Positions 8,743 to 34,255 of a stretch of 64,000 bases of DNA are shown here, one piece after another. The notes beneath the pieces were generated by a model, which made no database searches, was not told the DNA's origin, and saw only the letters and a program-made list of their open reading frames with translations. The stretch covers positions 1,612,001 to 1,676,000 of the forward strand of contig CP137320.1 in assembly GCA_033182465.1 (NCBI GenBank), given 5' to 3'. The stretch comes from Sanghuangporus weigelae (taxonomy: Eukaryota > Basidiomycota > Agaricomycetes > Hymenochaetales > Hymenochaetaceae). Positions within the stretch are counted from its first letter, which is position 1. Every line of letters starts with the position of its first letter. The position numbers and the translations under genes were made by a program.

Positions 8743-9067
8743 CGCCCGGAATTTGCAAGATGCCGCAATTACTTATTGATTGCTTCCGTATTCGCAACAA
8801 AATGGATTCTAGGGAATTGAAAATGGTAAGGAATCTCAATGTGAAGTCGCGAGGTCTTCATTGTAGATGCCTTTCTAATCTTCATTTCAGCAATTTCTTC
8901 GTCGACTGCAGATTCTGTATTCACATAGACATGTTTGCCATAAGCTTACGGAATACAGAAAAATGAATGAAGACCTGTAATATCCTATAACTCCTTCCGC
9001 GCTTCTACTTACAATGCCGTGGACTGGTTTACTTGTTCAAGCTCATACCGGCATAGACTTTGCAACT
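8743..9067. other. convergent 3' intergenic spacer
   Basis: About 325 bp between the stop of the Rpr2-like gene and the stop of the dioxygenase gene. It is expected to hold both 3' UTRs. I see nothing else in it. Confidence 0.5.
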
Positions 9068-10335
9068 TTATAAACCAAAAGCAATAGTCGGACATCCATA
9101 GACCCCAGAGAGAATCCTCGCCTGTCCTCCTTCCCCTGCACCAGCCGCAACATAAATAGGAATAAAGTGTTCCTCGCGCGGATGAGCCCGTCTGAAATAC
9201 TTGTGCTTCGTGATATTGACAAGTGATTCCTTGAGGTTTTCCTGCGAGTGAGGCAGCAAAATTAGTGCTAAAGCGGCTGAAAAGCACCAAGAGAGGACGT
9301 ACCATGGGCTGTTGCGCCGCTTCTAAGATCGCATTATCGAACTGTTTAAACTCCGGTTTCGCAGTGCTCTCCGCAAACGCGGAGAAATCTCTGAACGTAT
9401 GGATCGTCAATCCACCCGAGAGGATCAGTATTCCCTCCTCCCTCAGCTTCGCGACAGCCTTTCCGACAGCCCAGTTCTTCTCGGGACTCAGGCTCGAATC
9501 AATGCTCGCTTGCACGATAGGAACATCATGGAACGTATGTCCGAACATGATTCGGAAGGGCACGAACACGCCGTGATCGAGTCCGGGACCTTTGAACCCT
9601 CGTCCGTCCTCACCGCGCGGTTCGGTACGAGGTGTAGTGCGAGAGAGAAAGCCGGCGGAGGTGAAGGCTGAGACGACGCGTTGCGAGAGCTCGGAAGAGC
9701 CGTTGGAGCTGAACTTGAGCTCGTACAATTCACGGTCGAATCCGAAGTAGTCCATTAGAAGGGGTTGGTCGTCACCGTAGTCGGTCACTACAAAAAGCTT
9801 AGTCCTGTGTCATCTATGCGGAATGAAATGACATGTCCGCACCTAACCGTTCTCCCATCGTCTCCCAGTGAGCGCTGAACACCAGAATGCCCTTTGGCTT
9901 GTACTTCTCCAACAGCGCTGGTCCGAACAGCTTTAAGAACCGCGCAAGCGGGCCCTTGGGGCCCGTATGCAGTTCCATAGGAGATGTGCCCGTCAGAAGG
10001 TGGTCAGGGAACTGCAAGATGGGCGATCCATGCGCGAAGAAGAACGCTGGGATCTTCTCAGGTGTTGCCGGTAAAGCATCTAGTGCAGCTTTAAACTCTG
10101 CGTCGGTCTTTGGGACTGCGGGTGGTGAGGACGAAGAAGACATGGTAGTACGAGAGTTACTGAATAGATTGAGATTGAGAGAACGAGCAATAGGGAATGT
10201 CAGCTGGAATGGGAAGCGTGCCAGGACGATGGCAAACACGACGGCAAAGAGAGCGAAGAAAGCGCGAGTTGATATAGCAGCCAGGATGAATGCAGTACTA
10301 GTCGAGTCGCGATTATAAGTAAGTAATAGACGCAA
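9068..10335 (-). CDS. DODA-type (LigB-like) extradiol aromatic ring-opening dioxygenase
   Basis: A metal-dependent ring-cleaving dioxygenase of the LigB/4,5-DOPA dioxygenase superfamily. Three exons (to 9848, 9804-9303, 9241-9068) are joined in frame. Conserved segments are FFAHGSPILQF and FSAHWET with metal-binding histidines, VTDYGDDQPLLMDYFGF, GLDHGVFVPF with a third histidine, and SGGLTIHTFRDF. The C-terminus is IYVAAGAGEGGQARIL. Two starts are possible. The ATG at 10335 gives 387 residues and adds a hydrophobic stretch (AFFALFAVVFAIVLARF) that could be a signal anchor. The ATG at 10143 (MSSSSSPPAVPKT) gives 323 residues and a soluble enzyme of typical length. Substrate is not predictable from sequence. 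Confidence 0.88.
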
Positions 10336-12504: not shown

Positions 12505-14166
12505 CTACACAGGAATAGCCTGTGCCTGTGCATACACAGAATAATCATAATGAATGTGCTCATAACGCTGGAGCGGGCGTAGGGACGGCCTCTCGTCGGT
12601 GGGGAAAAGGCCGGGGATATCAGACCTCGGTGGTAACTCCAATCGAGCAAAATGCCGCGTGTCATCGGACGAGCTCGTATGCGGGATAATCGGCGCCTAC
12701 GCACGCAGTTAACATGCACGGAGAAAGAAAAGAAATAGTTTCACTCAGTTGGTAGTTCCACGGACATTCTGAAAGCAAAAAAAAAAAAAAGTGCGATGCA
12801 TACCTTAATCTCGCGCCGCTCAAGCGCGCCCCAATCGACGCCCCTAAACCACGGATGGTCAAGCACGTCCTGGGATCCACCGTTCATATTCCCAAGGCGT
12901 TTACTCAAATCAGGATGTAACAGCGCTTTGATCAGCTCCCGCGAAAGCGGGTCCATATCCCGCGGCCACCATATTCGGCCTTCCAAGATCTTTTTATAAA
13001 TATCAAACGCGTTCTCTGCGAAGAACGGTGGGAACCCGACGAGCATTTCGTAGCACAAGATCCCACACGCCCACCAGTCGGCAGCTTTCCCGTGCCCTTC
13101 TGACCGGATGATCTCGGGCGCGAGGTATTCTGGCGTGCCACATAACGTCCATGTACGGTCGTCGACGAGCTTGGCGAAGCCAAAGTCTGTTAGCCGTAAG
13201 TAACCCCGTGAGTCGAGAAGCAAGTTTTCTGGTTTCAGGTCACGGTAGACGATGTTGAATGAATGTAGATATCTTAGTGCAAGAACTATTGTTGCTAGAT
13301 AGAAGCGCGTAACGTCAGGTGTGAACCGTTGTGCGCGTCGTAGATGTGTGAAGAGCTCGCCGCCTGGTACGTAAGAGAGAAGCATGTAGACACTCTCCTG
13401 GTCTTGGAAGGTTGCATAGAGATCGACGATGAATGGGTGTCGTATCCGAGAAAGAATGTATCGCTCGGCTGCTACGTGCTCAACCTGCCTTAACCGTACA
13501 ATTTCCTTTTTGCTCAGAATCTTCATGGCGAAGTAATTGGCAGAGTCTTGTCGTGCGGGTGCATTTCGCAGGCGAACTAAGAGTACTCTTCCGAATGTCC
13601 CAGTTCCTAACGGAATCAGTAAGCGTTAACCGAAGAAGGAAACCATGCCAACCTAAAGTGCCTCGTACTTCGAAATCCGTCAACTTCACGGTATTTGTTC
13701 GAGGTAAATCCAAGTTCTCCTGAGACAAAGAGCGCACAGGCTGACGAACTATTGATAAGTTCTGCTCATTCTGCGTCATCGGGTCTTCATCCATCGCATC
13801 AGGGTTTTCTGGCGCCTGCGAAACTGGTGTCACGGGATATTCTACCTGCACGGGTTGCGACATATCCTCCATGACAACCTCCAGTGGTTGCTGTTGCTGA
13901 TGCAGCTGCTGGGCGGGAGGCTGGCTCTGATTTTGTGGATGGTACGGGTGGCTCATGTTTACTTCTTCTGGACCTGGTGACTCAGGAGGCGTAATTGGCC
14001 CTTCTGAGAGGACCATTTCTGAGTCGCGGCGGCCGGACATTTTTCTGGGCGGATAGCCCTGTATCGGCGTAGGGCTCAAAAGGGGTTGGAAGAAACCTGG
14101 AGGGAAGACAGTGCCCGGAGACGGCATAGACGCGGAGCGCGGAGGGAGCTCGTACAAGTGATCCAT
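12505..14166 (-). CDS. cAMP-dependent protein kinase catalytic subunit-like AGC kinase
   Basis: Three exons (14166-13653, 13606-12804, 12696-12505) give 502 residues. A Gln/Pro-rich leader of about 170 residues precedes a complete kinase domain. The glycine loop GTLGTGTFGRV is split by intron 1. The rest includes the ATP lysine in YFAMKILSKKEI, catalytic YRDLKPEN, DFGFAK, the activation loop TWTLCGTPEYLAPE with its phosphorylatable Thr, and DWWACGILCYEML. The sequence DPLSRELIKALLHPDLSKRLG is PKA-like. The C-terminal tail (APIIPHTSSSDDTRHFARLE onward) keeps the AGC tail position but ends in AQAQAIPV without the FxxF motif of canonical PKA. It could be a diverged second PKA (basidiomycetes often have two) or a related AGC kinase. 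A poly-A run at about 12779-12791 lies in intron 2. Confidence 0.85.
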
Positions 14167-14807: not shown

Positions 14808-16312
14808 ATGGTGAGGCGGAGAAAACACAGAACACACGTAAATACTCCTCAAAACACAGACAACAATGTCCCGAGATCGTTCATCATCAAACACGGCAAC
14901 GTCGGCTCGTCACTATCTCAGCTCGTCAGAGACCTCCGCAAAGTAATGGAACCAAACACCGCGAGCCGTCTCAAAGTGCGCAACTCTCTCAGAATAGTTT
15001 TTGAATGAATCTCACTCTTTACATTGCTGATAGGAACGCGCAAGAAATAAACTGAAAGACTACCTCACGCTCGCACCTGCGTTGCATGTCACTCATCTTC
15101 TTGCGCTGACACTCACACCTATTGCACCCTACCTGCGAATGGTCAGGCTTCCTGCTGGTCCGACTCTCACCTTCCGTATGGAAAGGTACAGTCTATCAAG
15201 AGACATTATTGGCTCTAAAAAGCATGCTCGTAGCATGGGCCTTGAGTACCTCACTCCGCCTCTCGTGAGTCCATTATTCTCTTTCGTCAACACGCCATTA
15301 ATGCATCACTTAATATTTCAGCTCGTCCTGGCCTCATTTCCTCAACCATCTCCATCAACCCCTCCACACCTCACCCTTCTCATGAAATCCTTTCAGTCTC
15401 TCTTCCCTCCTCTCTCACCTCAATCGCTCTCCCTTTCAGCCGCTCGACGCGTCGTCCTCGTGCAATACGATCCAGAGCGCGACACCGTGGACGTCCGGCA
15501 CTATCTCATCACCGTCAAGCCCTACGGCGTCACGCGACGTATACGTAAAATCCTCGAAGGCGCGGCAAAAGCAAAATTCAACAAGTCTCAATCCCGCGCA
15601 TCGTCCAAACCCACCATCACAGGTGTGGTGGACCTCGGAAGGGAACAGGATGTAGCGGATTTCGTACTCCGCCGTAAAGGCGAACCAGGTCCAGACGATG
15701 ATGGTTATGAATCGGCTGCATCTTCCGCATCGAGCGCTGCTGGGGATGATGACGCCGATGCTGTATCCCTCGCTAGTGACTATGTCGGACGGAATAACAA
15801 GAAAGGTACGAAAAGGGCTGTGAGGCTTGATGAAATTGGCCCGAGGATGGGGCTCCGACTTGTCAAAATCACCGAAGGCGTTCCAGGCAAGGACGGAGCT
15901 GTCATGTACCATAGTATCGGTGCGTGTCAACACTTTCTTTCGCGCATTCTTGACGTAGTTACTAAATCAACTTTCAGTCAAAAAATCAAAAGCGGAAGCA
16001 ACGGCACAAAAGAAGGTACACGCGGAGAAGGAGAGGCTGCGACAGCAAAGAAGGGAGGAACAGGAACGGAACGTTGAGCGGAAAAAGCAAGAAGCAGGAG
16101 AGGGAGCGAGCAAGAAGGGTGTACAGTTTGCGGATGAAGATGGCCAAGAGAGGGACGAGGAAGAGGGCGAAAGGGAGGAAGACGTGGGTGAGTGGGACGA
16201 TGAGGAAGAAATCAGCGAAGGTGACGAAAGCGAGCAAGAGGAGCAAAGCGAGAGTGAAGACGAGGAACCAGTTGAGCGTCCCAAGAAGAAGAGGAATCAC
16301 AAAGACCGATGA
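14808..16312 (+). CDS. SSF1: Ssf1/Peter Pan-type Brix-domain ribosome biogenesis protein
   Basis: A nucleolar factor for assembly of the large (60S) ribosomal subunit. The start at 14808 gives MVRRRKHRTHVNTPQ, then VPRSFIIKHGNVGSSLSQL and VRDLRKVMEPNTASRLK, the Ssf1/PPAN signature. The Brix domain follows: RNKLKDYLTLAPALHVTHLL, LRMVRLPAGPTLTFRM, VVLVQYDPERDTVDVRHY, YGVTRRIRKILEG and EIGPRMGLRLVKITEGV. An acidic, low-complexity insertion (about 15700-15790) interrupts the region after ADFVLRRKG. The C-terminal tail is a highly charged Lys/Glu/Arg coiled region ending in RPKKKRNHKDR, typical of nucleolar proteins. There are four exons; the first intron follows K56 (GTGCGC...TAG). Confidence 0.92.
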
Positions 16313-16454: not shown

Positions 16455-17369
16455 CTATTTCGTCGTCTTCGCACCTCCCGAATCATTCACAGCAGCAGCA
16501 TTAGTCCACGGCAACGGTCCGACCCATCGCTCCAAGAACCTCAAGCTGCGCATTTTTACTGCATCCCAATTATCCAACGCAGGTCGTACATCCAAATAAA
16601 ACGACAGATTGCCTGGAGCTGATGACTTGCCGGTGTAGAAGTCTATCACGTAGCGCATGCGTGTCCCGCAACGATCGATGACCCAGTCGTGTCTGTCGAA
16701 GGGTGCTTGGTAGCTATTCATCCAGCAACATATCCATTAGCTCTCTTCACACTCAAAGATTTAAGTATAGACTACGCACCCCAAGAGTGTCTTTACCCAA
16801 GCCTTGGGTGTCCTCTCCCCTGGTCTTCCCTTAAAGCTCACCAACTTCACGCCCCCACACCGCTCGCCGCCCCACCCGCGCTCCCAGGTCATCAGCTCCC
16901 CCCAGCAGCGCTCATTCACGGCATTATGTATGGGCACGATGACGCGCATGTCCGTCGCGCGCGGTGCGTGGTTCTTCCGCGCCATGGCGGCGAAGAACTG
17001 CGCTTCAGACGGGTAGACCCAGTTTTTCTCATCTTCTGTTGAGTCGGAGGAGTCAGAGCGCGGGATTGAGGAGACTTGGCGTGCCGTTGGGAGGGAAGGT
17101 TGTGCAATTGTGTTGGTGCTCGACGACGTGCCTACGCCTGAGGTACTCTCATTGGAAGTAGAGCTCGAGCTGGAGAATAAACCAGATAATCCACTCCACG
17201 TCGAGCGCGTCTTATGATCCACAGGACATTTATCCGCCTCCGCCGCACGAGAAAACTGAGAATGGTCAACGGGGCATTTGTCGCTGCTCGAACTACTCGA
17301 CTTTGGTACTGATTGCGAATCACTTGAGCAAGACGAGCAAGACGAATGGTCGACCGGACACTGCGCCAT
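16455..17369 (-). CDS. CYC3: cytochrome c heme lyase (holocytochrome c synthase)
   Basis: Two exons (17369-16780, 16713-16455) give 282 residues. The enzyme attaches heme to cytochrome c (or c1) in the mitochondrial intermembrane space. The N-terminal 52 residues carry three identical CPVDH motifs, at residues 4, 32 and 48, separated by Ser-rich linkers; CPV motifs in this family bind heme. The catalytic part includes NWVYPSEAQFFAAMARKN, VPIHNAVNERCWGELMTWE with the heme-ligating histidine (residue 148, equivalent to His154 of human HCCS), LVSFKGRPGERTPKAW, and FDRHDWVIDRCGTRMRYVID. I chose the start at MAQCPVDH because the family begins just before the first CPV motif; an in-frame upstream ATG at 17468 would add 33 residues. 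Confidence 0.93.
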
Positions 17370-18286
17370 GGCTTTCTTGCAAGTGACTGCGGTGGACTCG
17401 CGACGAAAATCACATACTTGGCCCGGATCACTCTCGGCATGATCAAAATCCAAACTCAGATCTCTCACGTGCTTACCCGGCTTGTTCCGACGATTCTTCC
17501 ACGTTCGGAACGGAAAATGATAGCGGTCGGAAAATTGCGCTCAGGGCCTAGGCTCAGACAGAAGAACGACGATCCGACGAAATCGCGATCTTCAAGAAGA
17601 TTTGCGCTGTCAATCACAATCAGTGCCAATCTTTTTGATCCCAGGCTCGCGGCAACCAAACTCCGCGTGTAACCTGTTTTATCTGTGCCCCGCAAGGAAT
17701 CTCAAGGAATCCATGGCAACCTTCCCCAATGATAAAGTTAACGCTCAAAACACACAGTCAGAGAATCATGTTTATCCAAGAGTACCAAAGAAGAAACAGA
17801 AACAAATATATATTTTAAAGCAAAGCGTTGCGTATATGAGAGAGTACCATGTCCAGAGGCTGAGGCTGAGGCGGGGGGATAAAGCAACAACGCAACACGG
17901 CCAGAGGTGACACTCTAATGGTCTGTCTCAAAAAAGAAAAACACGTAGAACATCTACCTTACAACCGTGCAACATTAAATGTGTCAGGAACAATAAAGAA
18001 AAGTTGGTAAAGAACCGGAGAGAAAACGAAGCGAATGTACGACAATCACGAAAATTGTCAAAGAGCGGATAATGTCCAGTCGATTTGGTATGTCGCGGAA
18101 CGTGTTGTTCCAAGGCATTGTCTCTGTGAGTGTGTGTTATGAGTGTGAAAGGAACAGGCGATTAGCGGCGAGAACATGCGACATCATCGGTGAGTCGTAG
18201 CGAACATTTATTTCTAAGCGTCAACTGTCGATTGCATTACGTATTTATTTAGTACCCGCGCTTCCTTCGATGCGAGTCGGAGGAGA
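17370..18286. other. intergenic stretch between two minus-strand genes
   Basis: About 900 bp containing the heme lyase promoter and the 3' side of the PriA-like gene. No frame here has recognisable content. I see no RNA gene. Confidence 0.45.
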
Positions 18287-25386: not shown

Positions 25387-28300
25387 CTAGAGGTCCTCGT
25401 CATCAGATATTCGGATTTCGTCTTCGTTTTGCTGCTGCTGTTCCGCCTGCCCTTCAACAGAACTATCCGCTGGTGGAGCAGATGCCATGGCCGCGACGAA
25501 AGTCGTCCCTTTCCCTGCGCTCGCCTGTTTCTCCGCCTGCGCCATCGGATCAGCCGCCTCTTCCGCTTCAACGACCAGATCCTTCTGTCCCTTGCGCGCC
25601 GCTAACGCTTGAGCGGCAAGGAAGGAAGCCTCAGTATTGAACTGAGCCTGCACGCTACGTTTGATACGTAGCATCTCACGGAACGTATCCTCGGAGCCAG
25701 TATCAATCTCAAAGTTGTACCATTCTTTCCAGAATTCTGGGAGAATTCGTGGATCACAAAACTGTGATGCGTGGGCATAAATCGCACGTGCCCGATCGAT
25801 TTCGCCGAGTTTGCGTTCAAGCTGCGCAAAGCGCATGCACATCTGCGCCGTCTGCTTATCTGGTAGCACCTCAATAGCTTTTTCGTAAATCGGACGGGTA
25901 GCCGGAAGACCGAAATTGGCAGAGGCTTTCGCAATGTAGATCGAGAACATCTATGTGCAATGTGTAAGATGTCGTTGATCGCGGAATAAGAAATACAAGT
26001 TACCTCGAATTTGTCCTCGTCAGTAACAGCTTGTGTAGCCCGTTCGAAAATGTTCATCGCGCGCTTGGCCAGACCATGTTCTTCTTCCAGCTTGGCATAC
26101 ATCAGATACAATGGTTTGCAGAACTTTGCAGGGCATTGTTCCAAAGCTTGCTCGAACAGGTCTCGAGCACGCTCTATCTTCGAACCACCCTGTCATCGAA
26201 GAATCAGCACTGCTCAGGCTTTTAAATATAGTTATACTCACGTAACGTTTGACGAACTTTGATAAGTAAATATTCCAGATCTCGAATGCAACGGGATACG
26301 TAAACAATTCAACACCACGTTCGTAAACTTTGAAGCTTTCCTCGAAGTACTTGTTTTCCTCGAGGAAAGCCGCGTAGTTGATGATAATCTGAGCGTTGGC
26401 GATCCGCAACTCAAGAATCTTGTCGTAAACTGCCTTAGTTGTGTCGACTGTGCCGATCGACTCCTCTAGATCAACATAGAACGACCAAAGCTTCAGAGAC
26501 TTGAATAAGCGGGCCTGGACAGGAAGAGACTAAAATTAAGAAGTCAGTAGGTGGGACATCTAGAAATCAAAGAAGGGAACACACATAATCATGATAGTTT
26601 ATTCTTGGATTCTTGGGAATCACTGCGGCACGTTGCATGACACGAATGGCTTCATCATAATTGTCATGCCGCATTTCCATTTCCGCCCATTCGCACCATA
26701 CCTCAGCGAGGTCTTCGACAGTTTTGAAATTGACTTTCGTAGCCTTTTCGAGAATCTTGCGAGCACTGTCAAGATCCTTCTCCGCCTCACCAGTTGTTCC
26801 ACCTTCCTCATAAAACTTGGCGAAATTAAAAAAAAGGCGATGGAAATTGGCCGTGGCTTTCTTCGAGTTGATAGTTGAGAGCGCATTAGTGTATGTCTCT
26901 GCGACCTTGACGATCAATAAGTCAACAGCTGGATTTATAGAAGTATTCGGAGATCATAACCAACCTTTTCATCGTCATTACCCCATAATGCCACTCGCTT
27001 CTCCCATTCTTGTACGTCGTTGGGATTTCGCCTGAGTAGGACATCGTTGACAAGGAACGGTCTACGGTCCATGAGCTGCTCAAGTTCTGCCATACGTTCA
27101 TCCATTTCTTTCTCCATCTCAGTCCTGTCTTCTTCTTCGTCTTCATCCTCATCCGGACTTTCGACTGCAGCCACAAGCGCGTTGATGACTGACTCAGAGA
27201 ATTCGACGTACGCATCAAAGATCTGAGTAAAGTCACGAAGAGTCAATGACGCGGCAATACCAGCCTCAAATGTGCTTTTTGCGCGATCGAACTCGCCCCG
27301 TTTAATCCAGTAAGTAGCGAGGCCCGTCCAGAGGCGTCCGGCTTGGTCTTTGTATACTTCAAGACCGTCTGTGCGAATGATTCGTTCCACATCGAGTTTT
27401 TGGATATTCACCGGGTCCTCATCCTCGTCGTACGGACGCAGAGGTTTACCGTCTTTGTCAACCGGAACGGGGGGTCCAGCAAATCGAATTAGGGGTCCAT
27501 TGAGTGATGCCGCTTCTTGGTTTGCCTTCTCGGCTTCAATGGCCTCTGCATCCGCTTTCTCCTTCTCCTGTCGATTTGAGATGGTCTGTTCCACGCTCAC
27601 ACCAACTTCCTCAGGATATTGTTCAACCACGTCAATCCATTCGCTGAGCAACTGATACGGGCTTTTCCCGTCAGGACTTGTGTATTCTCCTTTCGCAGCC
27701 TTCCTAGCTAGTGACAGAAGTAGCTTGGCCGCTTCAAGAGGTCTAGGCGATGGATTTGACGGTGAGAGGAGAATCGAAACATATCGCTCAGTTACACTTG
27801 GATCAACTGCCAGGTATCGACGGTACACGGCTGCGCATGTTAATCCGCCTCTCGATTCGGCCCAAAGGAGGTATCTGACCCAGACTCGATGGTGCAAGGA
27901 AGGAGGAAGGGTTCGTAAAGCACGGTCGTAAGTATGTCGTGCGTGTGTGTAAGAGAATACCGGAGGACACATAGGATGAGAGAAAATTGAAAGATATAAG
28001 AGCCATAGTCGTGGCAGCTATAATCAGATGGTGGCAAATGTCAAAAGGAAATCATTTAGCTGAGGTAAAAAAAGGTTGAGACGTACGTTAGGCAGCCACA
28101 TAAGAGCTCTCTCAAATGTCGCGACAAGCGATTTCCATTCCTCATAGCCCACGACGCTATCCAATCCTCCCTCCCATCGCTCCAAATCTTCCTTTTCATC
28201 TTCGAGAGCCTCCCCCATTTCTGGGAGCTTTTTCCGACCTCCCGCTCGCTTTTTTTGCACGAATTTACCCAATACATATGACATACGAGTATGAAGGTAA

Positions 28301-28662
28301 GATTTCCATAGCTTGAAGGATCCAGGAAATTGGACGAGCGCAGACTCATAAAGGTACGTCAACCGTTGAAAGCCGAGGCGCGCTTCCGGAGTTGCAAGAG
28401 GACCGAGCAACGAAACGACGCCCGGCTCCAGGTTCGGAGGAGGAGCGGTCTTTTGCAACGTAGTGCATAAGTCTTTTGTTGACTGGATTGCATTCCACCA
28501 GTGCCGAAAGGAAGTTGGATTGCGAAGAAGATCCTCTTCTACTGTTATGTCGGCGGTCGTCAGAAGTCCGGGATGAGTTACAGGACTCGGAGTGGGATTT
28601 GTCAGAGAAACATCGGCTTTCAGTGTATCCAGAGATGGTCGCAATGGAGCGACAGAAGGCAT
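25387..28662 (-). CDS. SYF1: pre-mRNA splicing factor Syf1 (XAB2), HAT-repeat protein
   Basis: A component of the Prp19/NineTeen complex in the spliceosome. The start is the ATG at 28662 (MPSVAPLRPSLDTL). The protein is built of HAT/TPR-like helical repeats: EEDLLRNPTSFRHWWNAIQ, LYESALVQFPGSFKLWKSYL, TFERALMWLPN, HTYDRALRTLPPSLHHRVWV, YRRYLAVDPSVTERYVSIL, DVQEWEKRVALWGN, ESFKVYERGVELFTYPVAFE and PIYEKAIEVLPDKQTAQMCM. The segment RIIRTDGLEVYKDQAGRLW and an acidic patch (SPDEDEDEEEDRTEME) are characteristic of Syf1. The last repeat region (WYNFEIDTGSEDTFREMLRI) is followed by a Gln-rich, acidic tail ending in DDEDL. There are about seven exons; the total length of roughly 1,000 residues is slightly longer than yeast Syf1. 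Confidence 0.94.
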
Positions 28663-28830
28663 GGCGGTCACAAGTGAGTTCAGGTCAACGACACGACACG
28701 ATAGTTGAGGATAAGTAGTAGAGTAGAGGAATCTGATTCTGAACTGAAGAGAAGACGCGATACATTACATAATCACCCATTCGCGTTGACGCGCTGAAAC
28801 GAACAAGTTATTTCAATCCCAGCAACTACG
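28663..28830. promoter_or_regulatory. compact divergent promoter (SYF1 / BET4)
   Basis: Only about 170 bp separate the two divergent ATGs. No TATA box stands out. The spacing implies shared or overlapping control elements. Confidence 0.45.
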
Positions 28831-30339: not shown

Positions 30340-30546
30340 TTTGGAGAGCAGAAGGGAAGGCACGCTCAGATCTGATAAACTTAGAACTTCAGAGTATCAG
30401 ACAATACATGGCGTTGAATTGGTTTTCTCAGCACATTTTACATGAATACATCAATGCTTTGAAACGTCCCGTCTCCGTAAGTCTGCTCTCGCTTTGGCAT
30501 GATCGACTACTCGAGTGCACCGACGTCGTCGACATGTATAGTGGCC

Positions 30547-30783
30547 TTACGTGCACTTGCACTCGCCTTGCGCGCATTGGCAGCTAAATAAAGCAGAAGG
30601 AAGGTCGCTCAGCCAACGCCAAGACGACCAAGACAATCAACTCACGTTGAACCGCAAGAGCAGGTCTCCTTGCCGCAGCCGTAGTTAACGGGGGTGTTTA
30701 CGTTCTGAAGTCACAAAGGCCCGATTAGCAAAAAAAATGTATGCGACGTTGTAGCAGAGTGTCAGAGGACATACAGCGAGCAT
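30547..30783 (-). CDS. small metallothionein, fungal Cu-MT-like, three exons
   Basis: Three tiny exons, 30783-30775, 30704-30646 and 30583-30547, with GTATGT...TTCAG and GTGAGT...TTTAG introns, add up to 105 nt and encode 34 residues. Cysteines are at 13, 18, 20, 24, 26, 31 and 33. The central CSCGSTCQC block has the same spacing as CNCGSGCSC in the Neurospora copper metallothionein, and a final CKC lies near the end. No aromatic residue other than Tyr11 is present. Seven thiolates in C-x-C pairs would bind Cu(I) or Cd/Zn in the cytosol. The gene is convergent with BET4 and has a TATA box 78 bp upstream of the ATG. All exon joins preserve frame, which supports the model; it is too short for ordinary gene callers. 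Confidence 0.82.
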
Positions 30784-30860
30784 GATGATACGGATTTCTG
30801 TTACAGGTCTTAATGTGGTAAGATCTTTGGGGGCGGACGGACTCAGCTTCGCGCGTGGTG

Positions 30861-30866
30861 TTTATA
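30861..30866 (-). promoter_or_regulatory. TATA box of the metallothionein gene
   Basis: TATAAA on the minus strand, 78 bp upstream of the metallothionein ATG. A TATA box at this distance fits an inducible gene. A GCTGA core lies about 20 bp further upstream in the reverse direction of transcription's start, but I cannot show that it is a metal-response site. Confidence 0.6.
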
Positions 30867-33369
30867 TGCATTCTGGAAGGGACTCCACGTGACAACGTCC
30901 ACTCTTTCGGCCATTTCGGATCGAGTTCCTCTCCTCCAATAATATTGTTCGCGCTCCGCTCCCAACCTGATGTTTCTGTTTCTAGTCATGTTATCTCAAG
31001 TAAGTCCCTAATTCTGTTTCCTTTCCTGTTTTGCTTCTGTCTTTGTCTTACCTTACCACAAATCAGATATAGTATTCTCATTGCGCTCGTTTCTGGACAC
31101 TCGCGGTATTTTCTGAACACCCGCGAGCCGCCGAAACACAGGATGGAAATCAAATGACCTATTCTGAGCTGAGACATCTGTTGCAAATACAATTCCAGAT
31201 CTTTTAGTTAGTTTGATTCCGTGCCTCTGCCTTTCCACCAGCAAGGCGAACTGTGCTTGCAACCCCATTCCAGATATAACCCATATCCGGGGAAGTCTGT
31301 CTTCCTGCCTGGATCTGGGCTGGACTCATACTGACCAGGGATGTACCGCATGCTCTACTGATACGATACGTCAAGAAGGATCTTGTAAGATAGAGGCATA
31401 TCATCCTTTCGATATGTGCTTCTCATTTGATATAACATGACGACACAGGAAAGCTGACCTGACTACGTATGGTATTGGAGCGGAGATGCGTACTGCGTGT
31501 TTCCTGTGTATCAGTGATGTTGAGCCAATACATTTCAGTGTTTGACTCCTTCGGGTTTCCACTACTATCATCTGCTTTTAAAGTGGGTCAACTTTCTTCA
31601 TTTCGACTTTTGTTGTGGATAGGAACAATGAATGATGACAGAGATTGTACCTGCATCCATGTGCGAGTCAGGACGCCGACAGGTTCGATTCGTTTCCGCG
31701 ATCTCGACGACCAGGAAGGAAACTGAAAAACCTTTGATCTGGTTGGTAGCGCAGGTAGCGCTCGGATTTGTATTGACCCCCGGCTTGATGTAGTCTTGAT
31801 GTTAAGTGAGTCTATTCTATACCCGCTCGCCGAGCTCATGCAATATCGGCAAGAAAATTCCCATACATCAGTTTCTTTCGGCGACTGAACTTAAAGGCCC
31901 GCAGGCATCACTCGCCCCTATCTGCGTGGCTTTGGACAACTTGATCTGAAGTGGTACTTTTCCGCGGCACGGTAAATGATATCATGGAGTAGCTGGCAGC
32001 AGAACCCTGTTTCAAATCAACATGGGCTAAATTCGCTGAGCGTAGACGCTCGTTCTGGATGCCATCATGGCCCAGTATTCAGTCGTGGCTTTTCTACTCC
32101 GGTATCAAGCAGACCTGAGTCATAGAAGGTTAGCGATCTGTGCAATATTCTGATTCTGCTTCTCAACGTCGTAACTATTTATGGCAGACTGTTCAATGCG
32201 TTGACTCGGCGAATCTGCCGTAAAGGGCGAACAGGCTCGCGAACATTAAAGTTCTGTGCCCAAGTAAACGTGCATTCGTGTGAACGGTAATACTGAAATC
32301 TTTTTCAGGAGCCGCCGCTCTATATGCATTCAGCAGAGTTTCTTATCCCTCAGAAGAAACTCTGTCTCTTCTATTCAGCGGAGTCTGAGAACTTGCGCCT
32401 TGCGCTTGGAACTTTGATACTTGACAGATGTGAGTTACTCCTATTCATCGACCCCCCATTCTATGTGCCTCCTGCTTATTTTGCTTGGGGAAATAGATTA
32501 CTCTCTTGCGTTGCTACATTGCAATGCCAACGTGAAATGGCCACCGCTCCACAATCATCACGCTCGCCGAGGAAACCTTTCTCCTCAATACTGTGTGTTC
32601 CAATAAATACAAATCAACATCTTGACCTTTCCGGACTCGCGTTGTACAGTTTGGGATATTGGGCAGCTCCACAGACCTGCAGTTTCCCTGCGGATGGCGT
32701 CGAAACCCTGCAGATGTATCTAGATATCGCTTGCTTCTCCGGGAGCTTATTTGAAGTTTGTAGGTCTTCAAGGTACTTTTTTGGCCACGCTCAAGTTTGG
32801 AAAACTCCTGATCTGGATCTTTGCTTCAGAAACTTATGGTGACATTTCGTACTGCCTGTGATAGGTATGATCTTCTTTCAATGAGAAGAGGTACATATCA
32901 CGATCGTGATTGTGATTGACACAACGTGCCTACAGCATTGAGACATCGCTTATCCTGGGGAGCTGACTATCGTAGCCCTGCTCCGGCTGTCTACATCACT
33001 GACATTCCACGGTTGTCGCTGACAAGCACGACTTAAGTTCCTTTATATGCTGGACTGGTTCCGGAATGAAAAGAGGATACAGTGCTTGCATTATGCGCTT
33101 TCTACCGTACTGACCACTTGCAGTGCGGGTGTAGTATCGTGGGCAGTGGTCATGCCCTTCGCCGAATCGAATACACTACGAGAGCCGGAAAGGAGGAATA
33201 TCACATTAGGAGTGCCCAATCACCAAATAGTTATCTGCTCACGAGGACATTGCGAAGCAAACATCTGTACGTATTGGAACGCTCGCTTTCGCCGAAGTAG
33301 AGGATCTGAACGGAGACTCTCAACCCCCTTTTTATCCTCTCCCAAATTGTCACCCATGCATGGACCTTG

Positions 33370-33392: not shown

Positions 33393-34255
33393 GAACCGAT
33401 AGCGAGGCTAATCATCCGCTTGCATCGACGGACGGTAAGGACGAAATGACGAGAAGGGATGATGTATCTGGATACTGCTGCCACTAGTGACTACACGAGG
33501 ATTTAATGAAGCAGAGTTTTTTCCTCCAAGTTGGGATTCGATACATTCTCGGACACTCGGTATCATCTTATTTGGCGAAAACGGTACACACGAATGGTGC
33601 GTGGATTGCGTCAAGGAAGCGATACCCTTGATTGTGGACGAGCGAAGCCGTAAACTTACGCGGTGAGGTAATGACGGATTCACGAAAACCTGGAGTCCTC
33701 GGCGAGTGGCGTTCGAGATGTCGTTGTTGTGAAGACGAGAAGATGGATAAATACACCGCTTTGAAGGCAGATAGGAGACCAAGGACGAAACTGAGCCGAG
33801 TGGCCGACTGCTCGCGATATGCTCGACGTTTTCGCGTGCCACCTATCATGATCCATGCTATGGAAAAGATAATTCAAAGTACACGCGTTTGCGGGCAAGC
33901 GTGCGCTGGACGCCCAACCATTTTCTTTTCCTTCTTCTTTTTATTTGTTCTCTGCCCTCGTCTGTTTGTGTTCTGCATGCGCTTGAACAGGTTATGTTTA
34001 TGAACGAAGTAGGCATGTAATTAGCAGAAAAAGGCTGAATAATAACAATACAATAATGTGAGAAAATAGAGTTCACTCGCAGTGCCTCATTGCAAAGGCG
34101 TGCCATCTCTCATCTCATACAAACTCGTCCATCGCGTCCCAGAAATCCATCGTCTCCCACATTTTCCTCTCAATCTCTCGTATCTTTCCATCTTCTGTCC
34201 ATAATCTCAGCCGTCCTCGTCCCTATCCTCGTCGTCGACACCAACAGCGACATCG

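Follow-up and report, generated by a model that had tools for sequence, protein, structure and literature searches.

The 64,000-nucleotide stretch of DNA analysed here (the window) carries on its minus strand a small gene of three exons, whose parts are listed in Table 1 together with the other features recognised around it. Joining the exons in frame on that strand yields a product of 34 residues, MLANVNTPVNYGCGKETCSCGSTCQCAQGECKCT, followed by a TAA stop, and confirms to the base both the position at 30547..30783 and the 9/59/37-nt exon structure that the earlier note on this DNA had proposed. The spliced translation contains the seven cysteines claimed for it (7/34 residues), spaced C-x4-C-x-C-x3-C-x-C-x4-C-x-C, and all four intron ends proved to be standard GT...AG ends. 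A single tyrosine is present, a residue that is unusual in metallothioneins.

On the low side, the nearest recognised gene encodes a SYF1-type pre-mRNA splicing factor with HAT repeats, and further genes in that direction encode a protein kinase, a Brix-domain protein and a cytochrome c heme lyase, all ordinary housekeeping neighbours, as well as a protein with a LigB-type ring-opening dioxygenase domain. Between the SYF1-type gene and position 34205, only one open frame of at least 170 aa is listed, and it has no Pfam match. The window yielded neither a tRNA nor an Rfam family at the gathering score, and the short direct repeats found in 30400-31300 form weak two-copy families.

Table 1. Positions of the three-exon gene, its TATA box and neighbouring features in the window
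Feature	Position	Strand	Details
Exon 1, 9 nt	30775..30783	-	ATG CTC GCT = M-L-A; spliced translation
Intron 1, 70 nt, phase 0	30705..30774	-	GTATGT...CAG; CTAAT 24 nt from its 3' end
Exon 2, 59 nt	30646..30704	-	N-terminal stretch and first three cysteines
Intron 2, 62 nt, phase 2	30584..30645	-	GTGAGT...TAG; splits Thr codon after second base
Exon 3, 37 nt	30547..30583	-	last four cysteines and TAA; first base completes Thr codon
TATAAA box	30861..30866	-	0.13 expected in 500 bp, both strands
LigB-type dioxygenase domain	9012-9809	-	
Protein kinase	12744-13625	-	
Brix-domain protein	15034-16074	+	
Cytochrome c heme lyase	16764-17540	-	
SYF1-type splicing factor	25605-28764	-	
Open frame of at least 170 aa	32297-32839	+	

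Exon 2 lacks an ATG, and a TGA inside intron 1, three codons before the exon, closes its frame, so that exon 2 requires a start spliced from an upstream exon; ATG-CTC-GCT|GTATGT is the only in-frame ATG-to-GT first exon compatible with an intron of 45-110 nt. Both donors follow the pattern GTRNGT, which is matched by 239 of 7,193 GT dinucleotides (both strands). A CTAAT in intron 1 fits the branch-site pattern CTNAY, to which intron 2 has no match, the closest sequence in intron 2 being a CTGAG 29 nt from the end. The weak branch-site match in intron 2 is what could be said for a decayed or unexpressed metallothionein copy; however, the frame, start, stop, seven cysteines and four intron ends are all intact and this is the sole copy found in the genome, and we regard decay as very unlikely. 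Protein and DNA searches of the organism's own genome each returned this locus alone, with one candidate scored in each, although such searches are weak against diverged, split paralogues and could have missed copies of that kind. All seven cysteine codons are TGC and GC3 is 26/34 (GC content is 0.47-0.48 in the surrounding 28-34 kb), a usage that fits a selected coding sequence.

The claim that no single reading frame reveals the product was borne out by the genome protein search, in which the sole match covers residues 2-26 only and its open frame is 22 aa long; the whole product is therefore absent from any single frame found. It is plausible that standard annotation would overlook such a gene.

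The locus most probably encodes a short cytosolic metallothionein that has 34 residues and belongs to the heptaCys type of Agaricomycetes, a reading to which we give a probability of about 0.93. PMC12508003 describes the short Agaricomycete metallothioneins as proteins of up to 35 residues with a C-terminal heptaCys motif, C-x4-C-x-C-x2,3-C-x-C-x4-C-x-C, and gives 13-35 mol% as the cysteine content of metallothioneins in general. The cysteine spacing of our product is exactly this motif, in agreement with the metallothionein identity proposed at the outset; the motif lies at the C-terminus, the length of 34 residues falls under the limit of 35, and the cysteine content of 20.6 % lies inside the general range. 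The short members named in the same text are AcMT2 (Agaricus crocodilinus), PiMT1 (Paxillus involutus), AsMT2 (Amanita strobiliformis), PaMT1, LbMT1, CcMT1/2 and ShMT1/2, and their lengths of 32-35 residues bracket the length found here. AcMT2, with 32 residues and seven cysteines, is encoded by three exons separated by introns of ~50 bp (PMC12508003), and the gene in the window has the same three-exon layout with small introns, a layout which the accessible text states in words for this one short member; its introns, at 70 and 62 nt, are longer than those of A. crocodilinus. The placement draws on cysteine spacing, length, cysteine content and exon layout. So placed, the gene is a further member of an already known metallothionein family.

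Scans of the peptide against Pfam and NCBIfam returned 0 families each at E values up to 10. The only matches in a PDB sequence search, to an eggshell membrane protein (the best, E value 0.15) and a ribosomal protein (E value 1.1), were rejected as cysteine/composition matches.

The earlier note had likened the central part of the product to the Neurospora copper metallothionein, and this holds in part. We compared the product with PDB entry 1t2y, which we take to be the Neurospora crassa copper metallothionein: both have seven cysteines and the central C-x-C-x3-C-x-C core (CSCGSTCQC in our product, CNCGSGCSC in 1t2y), and BLASTP of the two found 7/15 residues identical. However, 1t2y has 25 residues spaced C-x-C-x5-C-x-C-x3-C-x-C-x2-C, an overall spacing that the product does not share, and 1t2y was not among the matches when the PDB was searched with the window peptide at E values up to 10. 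Judged by cysteine pattern, the Agaricomycete heptaCys family is supported as a better placement than the Neurospora type.

Exons this small, with splice sites chosen freely, can be joined into many small peptides, and the whole structure could in principle consist of exon-like pieces of intergenic DNA brought together by chance. We assessed this using the heptaCys motif as given in PMC12508003, which was not fitted to the window although the peptide was already known by then, and searched either strand for cases with no intron or with a single GT-AG intron, 45-110 nt long, at any place inside. The real window contains one case across its two strands, which is the claimed gene. Among 20,750 order-2 Markov windows of the same length and with the trinucleotide make-up of the window, there were five cases, only two of them stop-free and both of these in the same window; an initial set of 200 null windows gave 0 cases. 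Scaled to the 33.87-Mb genome (~529 windows), ~0.03 windows with a stop-free case would be expected, a rough figure in that the null sequences do not reproduce the structure of real coding DNA. With a stop-free motif in just 1 of 20,750 null windows, the probability that the motif arose in the window by chance is low. The null rate, moreover, ignores the additional need for an ATG exon, a second intron and a stop right after the last C-x-C, all of which a chance assembly would have to supply as well, and we consider that explanation hardly credible.

The host genome comprises 33.87 Mb in 13 contigs. It contains 57 matches to DUF6533, a domain typical of Agaricomycetes, 14 peroxidase-family matches (counted exon by exon, in a family wider than the lignin-degrading peroxidases) and 9 GH7 matches, several of which are pieces of one gene. 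When two of the 14 peroxidase loci were compared with the PDB, the best matches were manganese and versatile peroxidases, near but, judged by the scores and one alignment, in no case identical; the closest entries to one GH7 fragment were 2xsp/2yg1, presumably Heterobasidion GH7, again near but not identical on that basis. From the DUF6533, peroxidase-family and GH7 matches, and on established knowledge of these families, the gene content of the genome is that of a white-rot member of the Agaricomycetes. The short members that PMC12508003 lists in its Table 1 belong to Agaricales and Boletales only, whereas the gene described here sits within a white-rot gene set.

Two further observations concern these enzyme families. 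Six of the 14 peroxidase-family matches fall within ~153 kb of contig 5 (2445810-2599153), suggesting a cluster, in which some matches may be pieces of one gene. On contig 2, two GH7 cellobiohydrolase genes of equal score (2616213-2617571, minus strand; 2623387-2624745, plus strand) lie ~6 kb apart in opposite orientation, and are perhaps the result of a recent inverted duplication.

Upstream of the gene, the TATA box reported 78 bp before the ATG was located as a TATAAA that ends 78 bases and starts 83 bases before the A of the start codon. A CACGTG palindrome occurs at -108 from the ATG (counted once per strand, 0.2 expected); it is placed between a CCAAT-like site (antisense, -157) and TATAAA, and is a possible regulator site. 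The 500 bp upstream also contain one antisense TGCRCNC (0.46 expected). Using the patterns HTHNNGCTGD for Ace1-type sites and TTTGCTC and TTTGCTG for Cuf1-type sites, we detected neither type in these 500 bp; the promoter therefore lends copper regulation no support. A bacterial-style promoter and terminator scan returned nothing useful for a fungal gene. Elsewhere in the genome there are two matches to the copper-fist domain, which marks fungal copper regulators, and these are candidate copper-responsive regulators of metallothionein.

The metal preference of the product, which the earlier note had left as not known, can be narrowed by analogy with the short relatives, zinc alone staying uncertain. 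In PMC12508003, all nine short members of Table 1 protect yeast against Cd (9/9) and Cu (9/9), while for Zn three are positive, four negative and two not determined; induction in mycelium, tested in seven of the nine, is positive for Cu in 6/7 and for Cd in 4/7. By analogy, the product would be expected to handle copper and cadmium, with zinc uncertain, and buffering of copper and cadmium is probably its main role. As in the characterised relatives, the seven thiolates would wrap a small Cu(I) cluster, and the product could also hold Cd(II), so that metal held by the product would keep free cytosolic metal low. Copper might raise transcription, possibly via one of the two genome-encoded copper-fist proteins; this is the weakest step of the proposal, and copper control of the gene is a guess.

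The same heptaCys metallothionein could instead serve mainly in basal copper/zinc homeostasis or redox buffering rather than in detoxification. Such a role would be in line with AcMT2, whose transcript dominates under basal conditions and which PMC12508003 calls constitutive, and with the failure to find any of the Ace1- or Cuf1-type sites looked for upstream; the protection of yeast against Cd and Cu by every short member, and the induction by Cu of most of those tested in mycelium, speak against it. On balance, we judge a mainly basal function unlikely, though clearly less so than decay or chance, and retain copper and cadmium buffering as the probable main role.

A second family, SlMTa/SlMTb of Suillus luteus, is reportedly that of Nguyen et al. 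2017. According to PMC9320278, SlMT proteins are basidiomycete metallothioneins that occur throughout Agaricomycotina and were found in two wood-decay fungi, and they are set apart, by description, from the sequences known in mycorrhizal species. The same study, which in 2022 compared Rhodonia placenta with Phanerochaete chrysosporium, reports that it did not find the metallothionein sequences already known in mycorrhizal fungi, and proposes as possible reasons either absence or a divergence too great for detection. In one place the text says that neither R. placenta nor P. chrysosporium yielded a metallothionein gene; its discussion names the SlMT type as the sole metallothionein detected in those two fungi (PMC9320278). 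Our own search of titles and abstract openings, with most subscription journals outside its reach, found no white-rot heptaCys metallothionein gene.

One tentative explanation, to which we give rather less than even odds, is that Agaricomycetes in general possess heptaCys metallothioneins, also in their wood-decay lineages, and that the absence reported for wood-decay fungi is an artefact, gene prediction and protein-level searches being unable to cope with exons only 9, 59 and 37 nt long. If this is true, the gene described here would be a first clear case. The host is in itself a mildly novel point, in that a known mushroom metallothionein family would be represented in a genome carrying a white-rot gene set, by a putative metal-buffering gene whose form is hidden as a whole from single-frame searches. 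Whether the heptaCys type is present or absent in such fungi matters for understanding the copper tolerance of wood-rotting fungi.
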